This document shows positions 42,854-46,171 of a stretch of 64,000 bases of DNA, piece by piece; position 1 is the first letter of the stretch; every line of letters starts with the position of its first letter. The notes under the pieces are model-generated. The model was not told where the DNA came from and ran no database searches. It saw only the letters and a program-made list of their open reading frames with translations. The stretch comes from Psychrobacillus vulpis (lineage in GTDB: Bacteria > Bacillota > Bacilli > Bacillales_A > Planococcaceae): the NCBI RefSeq assembly GCF_006861825.1, contig NZ_VDGI01000008.1:409-64408 (forward strand). The letters run 5' to 3'. Made by a program: the position numbers and the translations under genes.

Positions 42854-43333
42854 GTGAATATACAAATTATCTCTGTTGGGAAACTAAAAGAGAAATACTT
42901 AAAAATGGGGATAGAGGAATATACAAAACGATTAAATAGCTATGCAAAAATCGATCTAGTAGAAGTCCCTGACGAAAAAGCTCCGGAGCAACTAAGTCCT
43001 GCCGATATGGAAATCGTGAAGAAAAAGGAAGGAGATCGTATTTTAGCAAAAATAGGTGCGGATACATACGTCATTGCCCTAGCAATTGACGGCAAAATGA
43101 AATCTTCTGAAGAACTAGCAAGTGGATTAGAATCCCTAATGACCTACGGAAGAAGTAAAGTAGCATTCGTTATTGGTGGTTCACTTGGTTTACACGACGA
43201 AGTGTTGAAACGAGCAGACGAAAAGCTATCATTCGGGAAAATGACATTACCCCATCAGCTAATGAAGTTAGTGTTAGTGGAGCAGATCTATCGGAGTTTT
43301 AGAATTATGAAGGGTGAACCGTATCATAAGTAA
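42854..43333 (+). CDS. rlmH: 23S rRNA pseudouridine-1915 N3-methyltransferase RlmH
   Basis: 159 aa from GTG, exactly the B. subtilis and S. aureus (OrfX) length. SPOUT methyltransferase: [19 protein letters not shown] at the start, [18 protein letters not shown] in the SAM-binding knot and the C-terminal [19 protein letters not shown]. It methylates pseudouridine 1915 in helix 69 of 23S rRNA. In staphylococci the last 15-20 bases of this gene are the SCC integration site; the corresponding bases here recur twice downstream (44844, 45944). Confidence 0.98.
43314..43332 (+). repeat. rlmH 3'-end att-like site, copy 1
   Basis: GTGAACCGTATCATAAGTA at the very end of rlmH. It contains TATCATAA, as the SCC integration site in staphylococcal orfX does. 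Near copies lie at 44844-44862 (16/19) and 45944-45962 (18/19). Confidence 0.65.
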
Positions 43334-43350
43334 GTGCGGTTTATGAAAAG

Positions 43351-43389
43351 AACCACCAAAACGTAATAATCATGCGTTTTAGGTGGTTT
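43351..43389 (+). terminator. Terminator after rlmH
   Basis: AACCACCAAAACG / CGTTTTAGGTGGTT stem with a 12-nt loop, then TTTCTTTTT. It could also serve the convergent minus-strand gene at 43429-43947. Confidence 0.8.
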
Positions 43390-43428
43390 CTTTTTATTTA
43401 ATAGACATCAATCGATTTACTCGTCATC

Positions 43429-43947
43429 TTACTTAAAGCGTATCTTCATTGTATTAGCATCCAAAATTAATGCAACAGGTTTGCCAATAATAAATTCTTC
43501 AGCACTTATATGAAGTAGCTGATTATCCCAATGTTTAAACTGAATCATATCTAAATCGATTGGTGGATTTATTTCTTGTTGCTGTGAAAGCGTTCCTTCG
43601 ATTGTAAAAATTGTATAATCGTCTGAAAAAATAGGGTCTCCATTAGGTGTAACAGTAAAATTCCTTAATGTATGCCCTAAATCCCAAAAGTCATGTGCTA
43701 TATAGTCAGTAGGATTATTACAGTCAATTTCGTATAAATAATTACCCGTTAACACATAGCAAGTTGCGTACTTTGAAGAAACAGCAACACTATATGGTGC
43801 CCCACGAAATTGTCCATAAAACTCGTTGTAATTTTCGTCTTCAAATTTTACCCATGTCCAATCTTCAACGGAAATAGGCGCATCGAAAATTTGTTCAGGA
43901 TATTTGCCAGCTAGTGGTTGCTCTGTTATTTGTACGTGTATAATCAT
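43429..43947 (-). CDS. Hypothetical protein
   Basis: 172 aa, not recognised. No signal peptide or membrane segment; rich in aromatic and acidic residues and probably mostly beta strand (TWVKFEDENYNEFYGQFRG, GNYLYEIDCNNP, DYTIFTIEGTL). The start has AGGAG 8 nt upstream. It is the first gene after rlmH, convergent to it, in the segment bounded by rlmH-end-like repeats, so it is probably accessory cargo. Confidence 0.7.
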   Translation of the reverse strand: MIIHVQITEQPLAGKYPEQIFDAPISVEDWTWVKFEDENYNEFYGQFRGAPYSVAVSSKYATCYVLTGNYLYEIDCNNPTDYIAHDFWDLGHTLRNFTVTPNGDPIFSDDYTIFTIEGTLSQQQEINPPIDLDMIQFKHWDNQLLHISAEEFIIGKPVALILDANTMKIRFK

Positions 43948-44094
43948 TGTGGTTAGCTCCTATAAAATAACTGCCTACAGTCTTTAAGTGCTTAACGTTG
44001 AATTATAGCAAGAGTTTTTAATTTATATTAAGACATAGTATATAATAAGTATATTAAAAATATGAAAGCTAAGGCTTTGAGAGGAGCTGAAAAA

Positions 44095-44820
44095 ATGTTC
44101 GAACAAATCGATTTAAAAAAGCATCAGCTGGATGCAAAACGACCACTTTCTAAATATACAGTCCAAAGTCTGCGTGAAAAGCTATTTTTAGAATGGACAT
44201 ACAACTCAAACGCAATCGAAGGAAATACATTAACAATCAATGAAACGAAAGTAGTCCTTGAAGGGATTACTGTCGGTGGCAAAACGATGCGAGAGCATTT
44301 AGAAGTCATTAACCATCGAGATGCGATTTCATATGTTGAAGATATTGTACGAAAAGAAGAGCCGTTTTCAGAGTGGCAAATTAAAAATTTACATCGTTTA
44401 GTGTTAAAGGGAATTGATGATGGTTATGCGGGCGTGTACCGTGATCAGCAAGTGTTTATATCAGGTGCTATCCATACACCGCCACCACCGTTTAAAATTC
44501 AGGAGCAAATGGACGCTTTAATGAGTTGGTATGACGGGGAAGCACAGAATTTACATCCAATCGTTCGAGGTGCAATGCTGCATGCCATTTTTGTAGGCAT
44601 TCACCCGTTTATTGATGGGAACGGTCGTACATCAAGATTGTTATTAAACTTAGAGTTAATGAAATCTGGCTATCCTCCAATTATTATTCGGGTAGAGAAT
44701 CGTTTAGCGTACTATAATGCTTTAGATAAAGCACATACGACAGAGGATTATACGGACTTTGTTGAACTAGTTGCGAAGGAAGTTGAAGCTTCATTAGATT
44801 TATATTTGAGTGCAGTATAA
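44095..44820 (+). CDS. Fic family protein (AMP-transferase fold)
   Basis: 241 aa from ATG 44095, with GAGGAG 8 nt upstream; an ATG at 44062 is in frame but lacks a ribosome site. The core motif HPFIDGNGRTSRL (H170) is a complete HPFx(D/E)GN(G/K)R active site. TYNSNAIEGN at about residues 30-39 matches the (S/T)xxxE(G/N) inhibitory helix of class II Fic proteins, which blocks ATP binding until relieved. The family transfers AMP (sometimes other nucleotides) to target proteins. The target is unknown and no antitoxin gene is adjacent, consistent with built-in inhibition. It sits between two rlmH-end-like repeats. Confidence 0.93.
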   Translation: MFEQIDLKKHQLDAKRPLSKYTVQSLREKLFLEWTYNSNAIEGNTLTINETKVVLEGITVGGKTMREHLEVINHRDAISYVEDIVRKEEPFSEWQIKNLHRLVLKGIDDGYAGVYRDQQVFISGAIHTPPPPFKIQEQMDALMSWYDGEAQNLHPIVRGAMLHAIFVGIHPFIDGNGRTSRLLLNLELMKSGYPPIIIRVENRLAYYNALDKAHTTEDYTDFVELVAKEVEASLDLYLSAV

Positions 44821-44843
44821 AAACCGCACTTACATTAGTTGCG

Positions 44844-44862
44844 GAGAACCGTATCACAAATA
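44844..44862 (+). repeat. rlmH 3'-end-like repeat, copy 2 (within a hairpin)
   Basis: GAGAACCGTATCACAAATA matches the rlmH end at 16 of 19 bases and continues AAGTG..CGGTT as rlmH does. It also forms a perfect 12-bp hairpin with the following bases (GAACCGTATCAC 44846-44857 / GTGATACGGTTC 44864-44875) that can end the fic transcript. Just before it, 44821-44833 (AAACCGCACTTAC) is an exact inverted copy of 43330-43342 at the rlmH end. Confidence 0.6.
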
Positions 44863-44875
44863 AGTGATACGGTTC

Positions 44876-45231
44876 TTTGCTTATGAAATAGGAGTAGATT
44901 TGTACAATTATTCATAAAAATATTTAGGACTATTTTGGTAATGTGGGGGATAAATCAAATCAAGATAATCTAAGTCTAGTAAATAAAAAAATTATAGTTT
45001 TTTTAGATAGTTAATAATAGAGAAAAATAATAAAATTATATTTGAGGATAGATGTATAAAATGTATGCGATGTTATAATTTTTGTCTTAATAAAACTATA
45101 AAAAGGAAAGGAGAAGCTACTAGATAAAATATCAAAAATAAATAGTCAGAGTACAAAGAATTCATAAAATATTGATAAATAGGTATTCAAAGTTATTTTT
45201 TGTATATATCTTGAGTAGTAGCGATAGAAAA
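44876..45231. other. AT-rich gene-free region before the Dph6-like gene
   Basis: About 355 very AT-rich nt. TATAAT lies at 45074-45079 but without a good -35. A ribosome-site-like AAAGGAGAAG lies near 45109-45118 with no start codon at useful distance, as if an original 5' end had been lost. Nothing else was recognised. Confidence 0.5.
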
Positions 45232-45912
45232 ATGAACAAATGGATTGATGGTGCAAAAAATAAAAAGTTCGTAGCATCATATAGTGGAGGGAAAGACAGT
45301 ACTTTAGCATTATATAAAACTATGCAAGAAGGAACAGCCATAGGAATTATTGTAATGATGGAGGCAACTGGAGAAAGGTCAAGATCACATAGTCTTATTC
45401 CATCGGTGCTTAAAGCACAAGCAGAATCTATAGGACTTCCGCTTTACACAGGGGCTGCGACATGGGAGGGTTATGAAGGAGTTTTTGTAAAGCTACTAAA
45501 AGAAGCGAAAGAAATAGGAGCAGAGGTGCTTGTAACAGGTGATATTGATGTACCAGAACAAGATTGTTGGCATGAAAGAGTTACAAGCAGTGTAGGGCTT
45601 GAACTTGGTATGCCACTTTGGCAAAAGGGCCATAAAGATGTAGTAGAGGAGTTTATACATTTAGGCTTTGTAACAAAGGTAGTGACAGTTAATTTGAAAA
45701 AAGGAATGAAAGAAGAAGATCTTGGACGTGTACTTACTTTAGAATATATGAAAGAGTTAGAAGAAAGGGGTATCGACCCTTGTGGCGAAGCAGGAGAGTT
45801 CCATACTACAGTTATAAGTGGGCCACTTTTTAAACAAGATTTAAAGGTTAAAAATGGTGAGATTACGTCAAAAGGTGATTACATGTACCTAACATTAGAA
45901 TTAGAAAATTAA
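45232..45912 (+). CDS. Dph6-related ATP pyrophosphatase
   Basis: 226 aa from ATG 45232. PP-loop SGGKDST at residues 18-24, then GDIDVPEQDCWHERV and a C-terminal GIDPCGEAGEFHT, the hallmarks of the Dph6/MJ0570 family (diphthine-ammonia ligase in eukaryotes). Bacteria lack diphthamide, so the substrate here is unknown; some bacterial relatives work on small cofactors. The start is uncertain: no clear ribosome site precedes ATG 45232, and a TTG at 45172 would add 20 unlike residues. It lies alone between two rlmH-end-like repeats, so was probably acquired. Confidence 0.85.
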   Translation: MNKWIDGAKNKKFVASYSGGKDSTLALYKTMQEGTAIGIIVMMEATGERSRSHSLIPSVLKAQAESIGLPLYTGAATWEGYEGVFVKLLKEAKEIGAEVLVTGDIDVPEQDCWHERVTSSVGLELGMPLWQKGHKDVVEEFIHLGFVTKVVTVNLKKGMKEEDLGRVLTLEYMKELEERGIDPCGEAGEFHTTVISGPLFKQDLKVKNGEITSKGDYMYLTLELEN

Positions 45913-45943
45913 CATTTTGAAAATAACATCCATTGAAGGTGCA

Positions 45944-45962
45944 GTGAACCGTATCAAAAGTA
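45944..45962 (+). repeat. rlmH 3'-end-like repeat, copy 3
   Basis: GTGAACCGTATCAAAAGTA matches the rlmH end (43314-43332) at 18 of 19 positions, preceded by a similar TGAAGG. It lies 31 nt after the stop of the Dph6-like gene and is in the same orientation as the other copies. Confidence 0.6.
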
Positions 45963-46171
45963 TTTTGTTAGATGTTTTTGTAGCATCACTTACGGGATTC
46001 TTAAAAAAGCTGAAATATACAAATTTCTTATAATTATTTATGTATATCTCAGCTAGAATCTCTTCAGTTAGTGTCTGCGAAATGGATCAAGTATTACTCT
46101 CAAAAATTTGGGATAAATAAAAACCCTATAAATTTTTTAATCTGAACTAATACAATGTTTTTCCATAACTT

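Follow-up and report, generated by a model that had tools for sequence, protein, structure and literature searches.

The 3′ end of rlmH in Psychrobacillus vulpis is followed by an array of two short accessory segments, which are delimited by three co-oriented copies of an attachment site. The array was found in a 64,000-nt stretch of contig NZ_VDGI01000008.1 (the window). A hypothetical gene and a gene for a Fic protein make up segment 1, and a gene for a Dph6-like ATP pyrophosphatase lies in segment 2. The segments are probably non-autonomous mini-cassettes that resemble the staphylococcal cassette chromosome (SCC) and were moved in trans by a CcrB-like recombinase that is rarely resident in the host. 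A sequence-only reading of the window had proposed that SCC-like cassettes, or what remains of them, stand here in tandem and were moved in trans. It was right in substance and is the best-supported reading, although the term SCC does not apply in its strict sense.

The array at the 3′ end of rlmH

The genome comprises 4.02 Mb in 76 contigs, and the locus is on contig C75. The gene rlmH (23S rRNA pseudouridine-1915 N3-methyltransferase) occupies positions 42854–43333 of the plus strand (NCBIfam NF000985, 258 bits against a cut-off of 172), with the attachment site (attB-type) at its 3′ end. The sequence-only reading started from a 19-mer, described as the last 19 bases of rlmH, with two further copies downstream. 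All three copies were recovered on the plus strand, with starts at 43314, 44844 and 45944 and with 0, 3 and 1 mismatches in 19, respectively. Chance was excluded as their source: 100 dinucleotide shuffles of the window gave a mean of 0.01 matches, and none contained three. The 19-mer does belong to the 3′ end of rlmH, but the gene stops at 43333, one base beyond it.

The full site is longer than the 19-mer. Its consensus, derived from a by-eye alignment of copies in the fetched Psychrobacillus loci, comprises an outer arm (AACCKCAYTTA), a spacer, TACGG, a central GA, ACCGTA, a second spacer and a second outer arm (TAARTGMGGTT), i.e. two halves symmetric about the GA. This symmetric layout is that expected for the attP site of a large serine recombinase. 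In the window, Site 1 (attL-type, 43316–43342, plus strand) has its central GA at 43316–43317; its left core half is supplied by rlmH, and its right half carries the outer arm TAAGTGCGGTTT. Site 2 (44821–44863, plus strand) consists of the left outer arm AAACCGCACTTAC (44821–44833), the core GAACCGTATCACAAATAA (44846–44863) and a right arm that is off consensus. Site 3 (attR-type, 45922–45963, plus strand) has a degenerate left arm and a core at 45946–45963; it lacks a right arm, as expected of a chromosomal right half. The same segment end falls at a cleaner site in genomes G013 and G258. Just inside the repeats, segment 1 bears the inverted arms GTAAGTGCGGTTT (43330–43342) and AAACCGCACTTAC. 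Such arms are clear in segment 1; the right end of segment 2 has a degenerate one.

Positions 43316–45963 would accordingly form an array of two cassettes. If the half-sites of one cassette were joined in a circle, they would make a symmetric site of ca. 50 bp centred on GA, as in an attP site for a large serine recombinase. If such a circle recombined at GA with the rlmH end, the cassette would be inserted, rlmH would be restored and the far side would gain a copy of the rlmH end; repeated insertion beside rlmH would stack the cassettes in one orientation. The enzyme would be CcrB-like and would act in trans, from rarer and larger elements that have the same outer arms and are present transiently.

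Distribution of the site and behavior of its arms

The site pattern was searched in 261 genomes of Caryophanaceae/Planococcaceae, with the reversed pattern as a control. The family contained 767 sites (rlmH ends included) against 99 reversed-pattern matches; at least two copies were present in 169 of the 261 genomes (control, 12), and at least three in 102 (control, 1). Sites occurred in 17 of the 19 Psychrobacillus genomes. The genome of the window itself had 13 matches at up to three mismatches, compared to four for the reversed pattern. The named rlmH loci, which are the best 80 of 394, were examined by strand and side. At up to two mismatches, 61 extra sites were found downstream on the plus strand, from 41 of the 80 loci, while there were none downstream on the minus strand, none in 0.81 Mb of upstream sequence and none for the control throughout. 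Relaxing the limit to three mismatches gave 82 plus-strand sites and one minus-strand site downstream, one site upstream and three control matches overall, with 51 of the 80 loci contributing. A low-complexity repeat, like chance, was rejected as the source of the sites on the basis of the shuffles and the control counts.

It had been suggested at the outset that a 19-mer common across the genome would speak against cassettes. The 19-mer does recur, but several recurrences share the arms and delimit other segments, and the cassette idea is therefore extended by them. Five copies, for instance, lie on contig C44 (105370–114045), in an 8.7-kb array away from rlmH that is surrounded by accessory genes such as those for an AlbA_2-domain protein and a EutH-like transporter. 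The gene to the left of this array was found in all 19 genomes of the genus. The region was otherwise unalignable in the six fetched relatives, its right flank matched two relatives only (at 68–69%), and no syntenic empty site was found in the relatives. Sites more than 20 kb from rlmH made up 7 of 11 in genome G003, 4 of 8 in G013, 6 of 11 in G016 and 0 of 2 in G009. As to carrier replicons, one exact 27-letter pattern matched no viral contig, and the window segments matched plasmids and phages at 60–80% identity over at most 28% of their length.

Two further observations were made away from the window. A dispersed repeat of ca. 72 bp adjoins the C44 array (L010:9257–9328, equivalent to C44:105256–105327), with more than 100 partial matches listed across Psychrobacillus. 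In genome G013, another rlmH-like end, VIFEQLYRAYRILKNEPYHK, was seen at L150:7424 (equivalent to C1:1149424). It is divergent, may be truncated and is accompanied by a site copy, and a site of opposite orientation lies 0.8 kb from it.

The outer arms were counted in the 80 rlmH loci with flanks of up to 10 kb, such that the “last-seen” site of a locus is bounded by the end of the flank. Among the 51 rlmH ends that have further sites, the left arm was present in none and the right arm in 41. The 31 internal sites had the left arm in 18 cases and the right arm in 23; for the 51 last-seen sites the numbers were 27 and 30. The left arm was thus seen in 45 of the 82 sites beyond rlmH. At 1600 random positions, the left arm occurred once and the right arm 23 times. 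The arms follow the grammar expected of insertion in part. The right arm was also present at 15 of the 29 rlmH ends without a further site, so some arrays may run past 10 kb or have lost their far site.

The variable letters of the arms were compared in two ways. Between the two arms of one site they were complementary in 22 of 50 cases (permutation p = 0.56), i.e. there was no covariation; between the two ends of one cassette they agreed in 33 of 54 (p = 0.034). A whole-arm test gave p = 0.013 for the ends of one cassette (n = 52) vs. p = 0.11 for sites (n = 50). Agreement of cassette ends without agreement of site arms is expected if the inherited unit is the cassette and not the site. The same data bear on the idea that the sites act as folded single strands or via a tyrosine recombinase, like integron attC sites or REP elements. 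As that idea would have it, the outer arms are inverted repeats of each other, and several sites fold into a hairpin through them. The arms of one site do not covary, however, and no listed PF00589 hit lies within the site clusters of genomes G003, G009, G013 and G016; we consider this explanation highly improbable. The whole site as a hairpin or RNA terminator was rejected on similar grounds: some sites fold, yet their arms lack covariation.

A separate, hairpin-like motif, ACCACCTAGAACGTT, was found at up to four mismatches within ca. 100 nt to the right of 24 of 217 sites, compared to 41 of 4000 random windows (examples are L010:10146, L142, L149 and L159). In the window, a terminator-like hairpin (AACCACC...GGTGGTT followed by a T-run) was noted by eye just inside segment 1, at 43351–43395 of the plus strand. 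It resembles the motif by eye and is outside the 24 counted sites. Hairpins to the right of sites perhaps insulate rlmH from the cassettes.

Segments and their exchange between relatives

Site-to-site segments shorter than 9.5 kb were collected from 115 loci (the window, four other stretches of its genome, 30 stretches from the genus and the 80 rlmH loci). Identical segments were counted once, which left 111. Their median length was 2206 bp, and 47 of them contained a single open reading frame (ORF) of at least 100 aa. Pairwise comparison gave 94 alignments of at least 250 bp, the pairs being non-independent: four ran from site to site, 29 were bounded by a site at the left end only, 10 at the right end only and 51 at neither. 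Eight segments had a full-length partner, and 46 had a partner sharing at least one site-bounded end. Homology of at least 100 bp beyond the site was lacking at 37 of the 47 site-bounded alignment ends (24 of 33 at the left, 13 of 14 at the right).

Exchange across genera is evident in several of these alignments. Viridibacillus arenosi and Psychrobacillus G013 share 4.0 kb at 94.5% identity, with both ends at sites, vs. 76.3% for their rlmH genes; Lysinibacillus xylanilyticus and Solibacillus palustris likewise share 2.2 kb at 97.5%, with both ends at sites, vs. 78.8% for rlmH. Further cross-genus stretches (L059/L144, L073/L146 and L072/L076) are 92–97% identical, with rlmH at 73–78%. For the Dph6 segment of the window, the part from about base 151 to the site recurs at 94.6% identity in V. 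arenosi (the final 973 bp) and at 90.5% in G013; the homology stops at the site.

Homologous recombination between repeated sites or between rlmH genes, e.g. after natural transformation, might also have spread the segments with no site-specific recombinase involved. The conservation of rlmH on the left side, the many shared stretches that end away from sites and the lack of a matching recombinase in most array-bearing genomes would all fit such a process. Yet the shared cassettes adjoin strongly diverged rlmH genes (73–79%), the 37 bounded ends stop at a site whose conserved part is ca. 50 bp, the symmetric arms are common to recombinase-bearing loci, and sites also occur far from rlmH. Given these observations, homologous recombination alone is an improbable source of the arrays.

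The segments are not a fixed feature of the family. Had the Fic and Dph6-like genes been present with the same flanks in all relatives, the cassette reading would have been undermined; instead, 84 of the 261 genomes matched any part of either segment (E ≤ 1e-20; the two best candidates were scored per genome). Most of the Dph6 segment was found at 91–95% in three genomes besides that of the window. Five Fic loci resemble that of the window in having a 3′ site, and their identity to it is 81–83%.

Relatives lacking a segment were sought as well, as the sequence-only reading had advised. Such relatives were identified at rlmH in other species pairs; for the exact two segments of the window, no such pair was found. 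Seven pairs were compared, ungapped, over the first 53 bases. In five of them, the sequence following the segment matched the rlmH-adjacent sequence of the relative at 40–49 of 53 positions, vs. 15–24 for the sequence now adjacent to rlmH. For Planomicrobium CPCC 101079 vs. 101110, the right flank matched at 49 of 53 (compared to 23 of 53 for what now adjoins rlmH), and for P. lasiicapitis vs. P. soli at 46 of 53 (22 of 53). The remaining pairs, L045/L059 and L095/L093, matched poorly without gaps (23 and 18 of 53, respectively), and longer alignments exist. The relatives without the segment join the same flanks at the core; some bear other downstream sites and are thus empty of that segment only.

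The segments could, on another account, be remnants of autonomous SCC-like elements whose recombinase was deleted after insertion, none having moved as a mini-cassette. Relatives do have CcrB-like recombinases on elements at rlmH, the arms of some sites are degenerate, composites have been published, and most of the shared stretches are not full site-to-site units. Two recombinase-less units are nevertheless common to different genera from site to site, units of 0.2–1 kb with both arms exist, and 108 of the 111 segments have no recombinase. We regard the remnant account as unlikely, though less so than homologous recombination, and prefer movement as mini-cassettes.

The genes of the window segments are those that had been claimed. 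The hypothetical gene of segment 1 (43429–43947, minus strand; ORF call) encodes 172 aa, and its product had no match in NCBIfam, Pfam or PADLOC. The Fic protein (44062–44820, plus strand; 252 aa) was identified by PF02661 (84.6 bits) and by the PADLOC models SoFic and PDC-S04. It has the active-site motif HPFIDGNGRTSR, and an N-terminal SNAIEG is consistent with the class II inhibitory motif. The Dph6-like protein of segment 2 (45172–45912, plus strand; 246 aa counted from the first TTG) matched PF01902 (Diphthami_syn_2) at 152 bits and fell under the Dph6_archaeal equivalog cut-off (109 vs. 197 bits). Cargo at large was surveyed in 118 ORFs, hand-chosen from the 163 in segments of up to 5 kb (the 111 segments hold 234). 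They matched 192 Pfam families, none of which had more than three members, and gave some PADLOC hits; no unifying function was found among these 118 ORFs with Pfam and PADLOC.

Recombinases and relation to known cassette systems

The window was said to have no ccr gene, and this was borne out: no large serine recombinase (PF07508) was found in it, and the only one in the genome is on contig C18. That protein is weakly CcrB-like (123 bits, cut-off 900) and unlinked to the site. It was rejected as the mobilizer, being 26% identical to the enzyme of locus L091 (see below) and having no site within the fetched 14 kb. Its gene (L009:805–2526) converges on an rRNA methyltransferase gene that is RlmCD-like by eye and whose 3′ end it overlaps, and the locus is possibly a second rRNA-methyltransferase insertion hotspot. 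PF07508 was absent from 10 of the 19 Psychrobacillus genomes. Genomes G003, G009, G013 and G016, which consist of one or two contigs and have 2–11 sites, had no PF07508 hits, and their PF00239 frames were at most 228 aa. A large serine recombinase is encoded in three of the 111 segments, a set that by construction leaves larger elements outside.

The search for ccr-type genes was more productive in relatives, where CcrB-like recombinases adjoin sites with the same outer arm. Lysinibacillus sphaericus 2362 (L091) has a 9.4-kb element between two sites that encodes a 553-aa recombinase (L091:14702–16363) and a P4-type primase. The recombinase scored 454 bits with the CcrB model (equivalog cut-off, 900) and 324 with CcrC; it is related to CcrB and falls outside the curated family. 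Recombinases at least 50% identical to it were found in 12 of the 261 genomes, L. sphaericus 2362 included, and in none of the 19 Psychrobacillus genomes (at most five candidates were scored per genome). In all 12 loci of this class the recombinase gene has the orientation of the nearest 3′ site, and in 11 that site bears the mini-cassette arm. Six loci with recombinases of 38–41% identity are instead convergent to rlmH. Their nearest site is the rlmH end in five cases, with no site within the limit in the sixth, and the mini-cassette arm scores no more than 5 of 11 at each of the four far-end sites seen. One of them, L207, has the mini-cassette arm on two further array sites. Some loci of this class show TTTTGCCTCT / AGAGGCAAAAA arms, and others differ again. 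The outer arm may thus serve as an “address” by which the mini-cassettes are linked to the class of at least 50% identity.

The CcrB-like class that is convergent on the rlmH end, with other arms, was noted at L205–L210, L083, L084, L087–L089 and L100, with TTTTGCCTCT / AGAGGCAAAAA arms in L206, L207, L209 and L089. L089 has two recombinase genes, tandem and overlapping.

A number of observations weigh against mini-cassettes moved in trans. In the window, the right arm of Site 2 and the left arm of Site 3 are both degenerate. The right arm is kept by 30 of the 51 last-seen sites, although a true array end should lack it (the flanks stop at 10 kb), and in secondary arrays the last site likewise keeps its core, contrary to what simple insertion into an unrelated target would leave. 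The agreement between the two ends of a cassette is weak (p = 0.013, 52 cassettes). Just four of the 94 alignments run from site to site, with 39 having one site-bounded end and 51 neither, and at 10 of the 47 bounded ends the homology runs past the site, several times into rlmH; the segments had been pre-cut at sites. The Dph6 copy of G016 has no site. Of the 16 Fic loci fetched, five have a site at the 3′ end, three on the 5′ side only and eight none within 1.5 kb; in G153, the Fic gene stands directly behind rlmH, and its neighbor gene differs. The link to the enzyme is an association of arms, with L195 as the one of the 12 loci without the arm at its nearest site. Finally, the genome of the window has no compatible recombinase, and 94 of the 102 genomes with at least three sites lack one at 50% identity or more; past residence of the enzyme must therefore be assumed.

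Precedent for several parts of the proposed mechanism is found in the portions of the literature drawn on here. CcrAB requires the central GA, and ccrDE moves an SCC while itself staying behind (PMC10581047). CcrAB is also reported to recombine attSCC with attSCC and attR with attR, reactions believed to join SCCs (PMC5595907). Islands of the SCC-like type, equipped with a large serine recombinase, have been described at rlmH in several Bacillota, tandem composites among them, and Planococcus antarcticus appears in the table of such islands (PMC10061031); elements of this kind are listed for further genera (PMC10581047). Target, enzyme class and stacking are therefore already known. The Enterococcus cassette chromosome (ECC) lies at the 3′ end of rlmH and has att sites of ca. 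50 bp with TATCATAA, and its transfer was shown (PMC6222049).

With SCC and pseudo-SCC elements, as those portions describe them, the array has in common the rlmH 3′ end as the place of insertion, inverted repeats together with repeated copies of that end, the central GA, tandem composites and accessory cargo. In the strict sense it is not an SCC, since the window lacks a ccr complex; the genome has no CcrB-family recombinase, and the host is Psychrobacillus and not a member of the Staphylococcaceae. The segments also differ from SCC in their size (median 2.2 kb, 47 of 111 with a single ORF), in their arms and in the presence of sites far from rlmH. With SCC-type att sites at its bounds and no ccr, the array works like a pseudo-SCC. 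The islands of other Bacillota (PMC10061031, PMC10581047) agree with it in target gene, recombinase class and repeats, and composites are noted there; as described in those sources, they encode their recombinase, whereas recombinase-less segments are the majority of those examined here and some are shared across genera. The ECC, for its part, encodes ccrAB_Ent, and the element tested was 32 kb (PMC6222049). What is new is the scale of the recombinase-less arrays: in the open-license literature, no report was found that describes rlmH arrays of this kind and extent, secondary loci or sharing between genera for Caryophanaceae/Planococcaceae.

Integron arrays are strings of small, co-oriented cassettes with diverse cargo, and the mobilizing enzyme is encoded elsewhere. 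The present arrays are alike in their small co-oriented cassettes and varied cargo. They differ in that the site layout fits a serine recombinase acting on double-stranded DNA, no integron integrase was found in the arrays checked, and there is no resident enzyme; an integron would have a tyrosine integrase beside the array and folded attC sites, of which the site clusters of the four genomes above and the arm comparison gave no sign. More speculatively, and with considerably less confidence than we place in the mini-cassettes themselves, Caryophanaceae/Planococcaceae may run an integron-like system of gene sharing by serine recombinases. Single genes between SCC-type half-sites would be exchanged across genera and stacked at rlmH and at secondary loci, the enzyme would be supplied occasionally by helper elements, the outer arm would be the address of a class, and staphylococcal SCC might be a specialized offshoot of this older pool.

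SCC is the vehicle of methicillin resistance, and the origin of its cassette logic is an open question. A large and mostly recombinase-free pool of segments uses its target gene and its type of site. The pool makes the movement of passive cassettes in trans by SCC-type recombinases directly testable, and the core together with the outer arm provides a simple DNA signature for cassette boundaries and for the matching class of recombinase.

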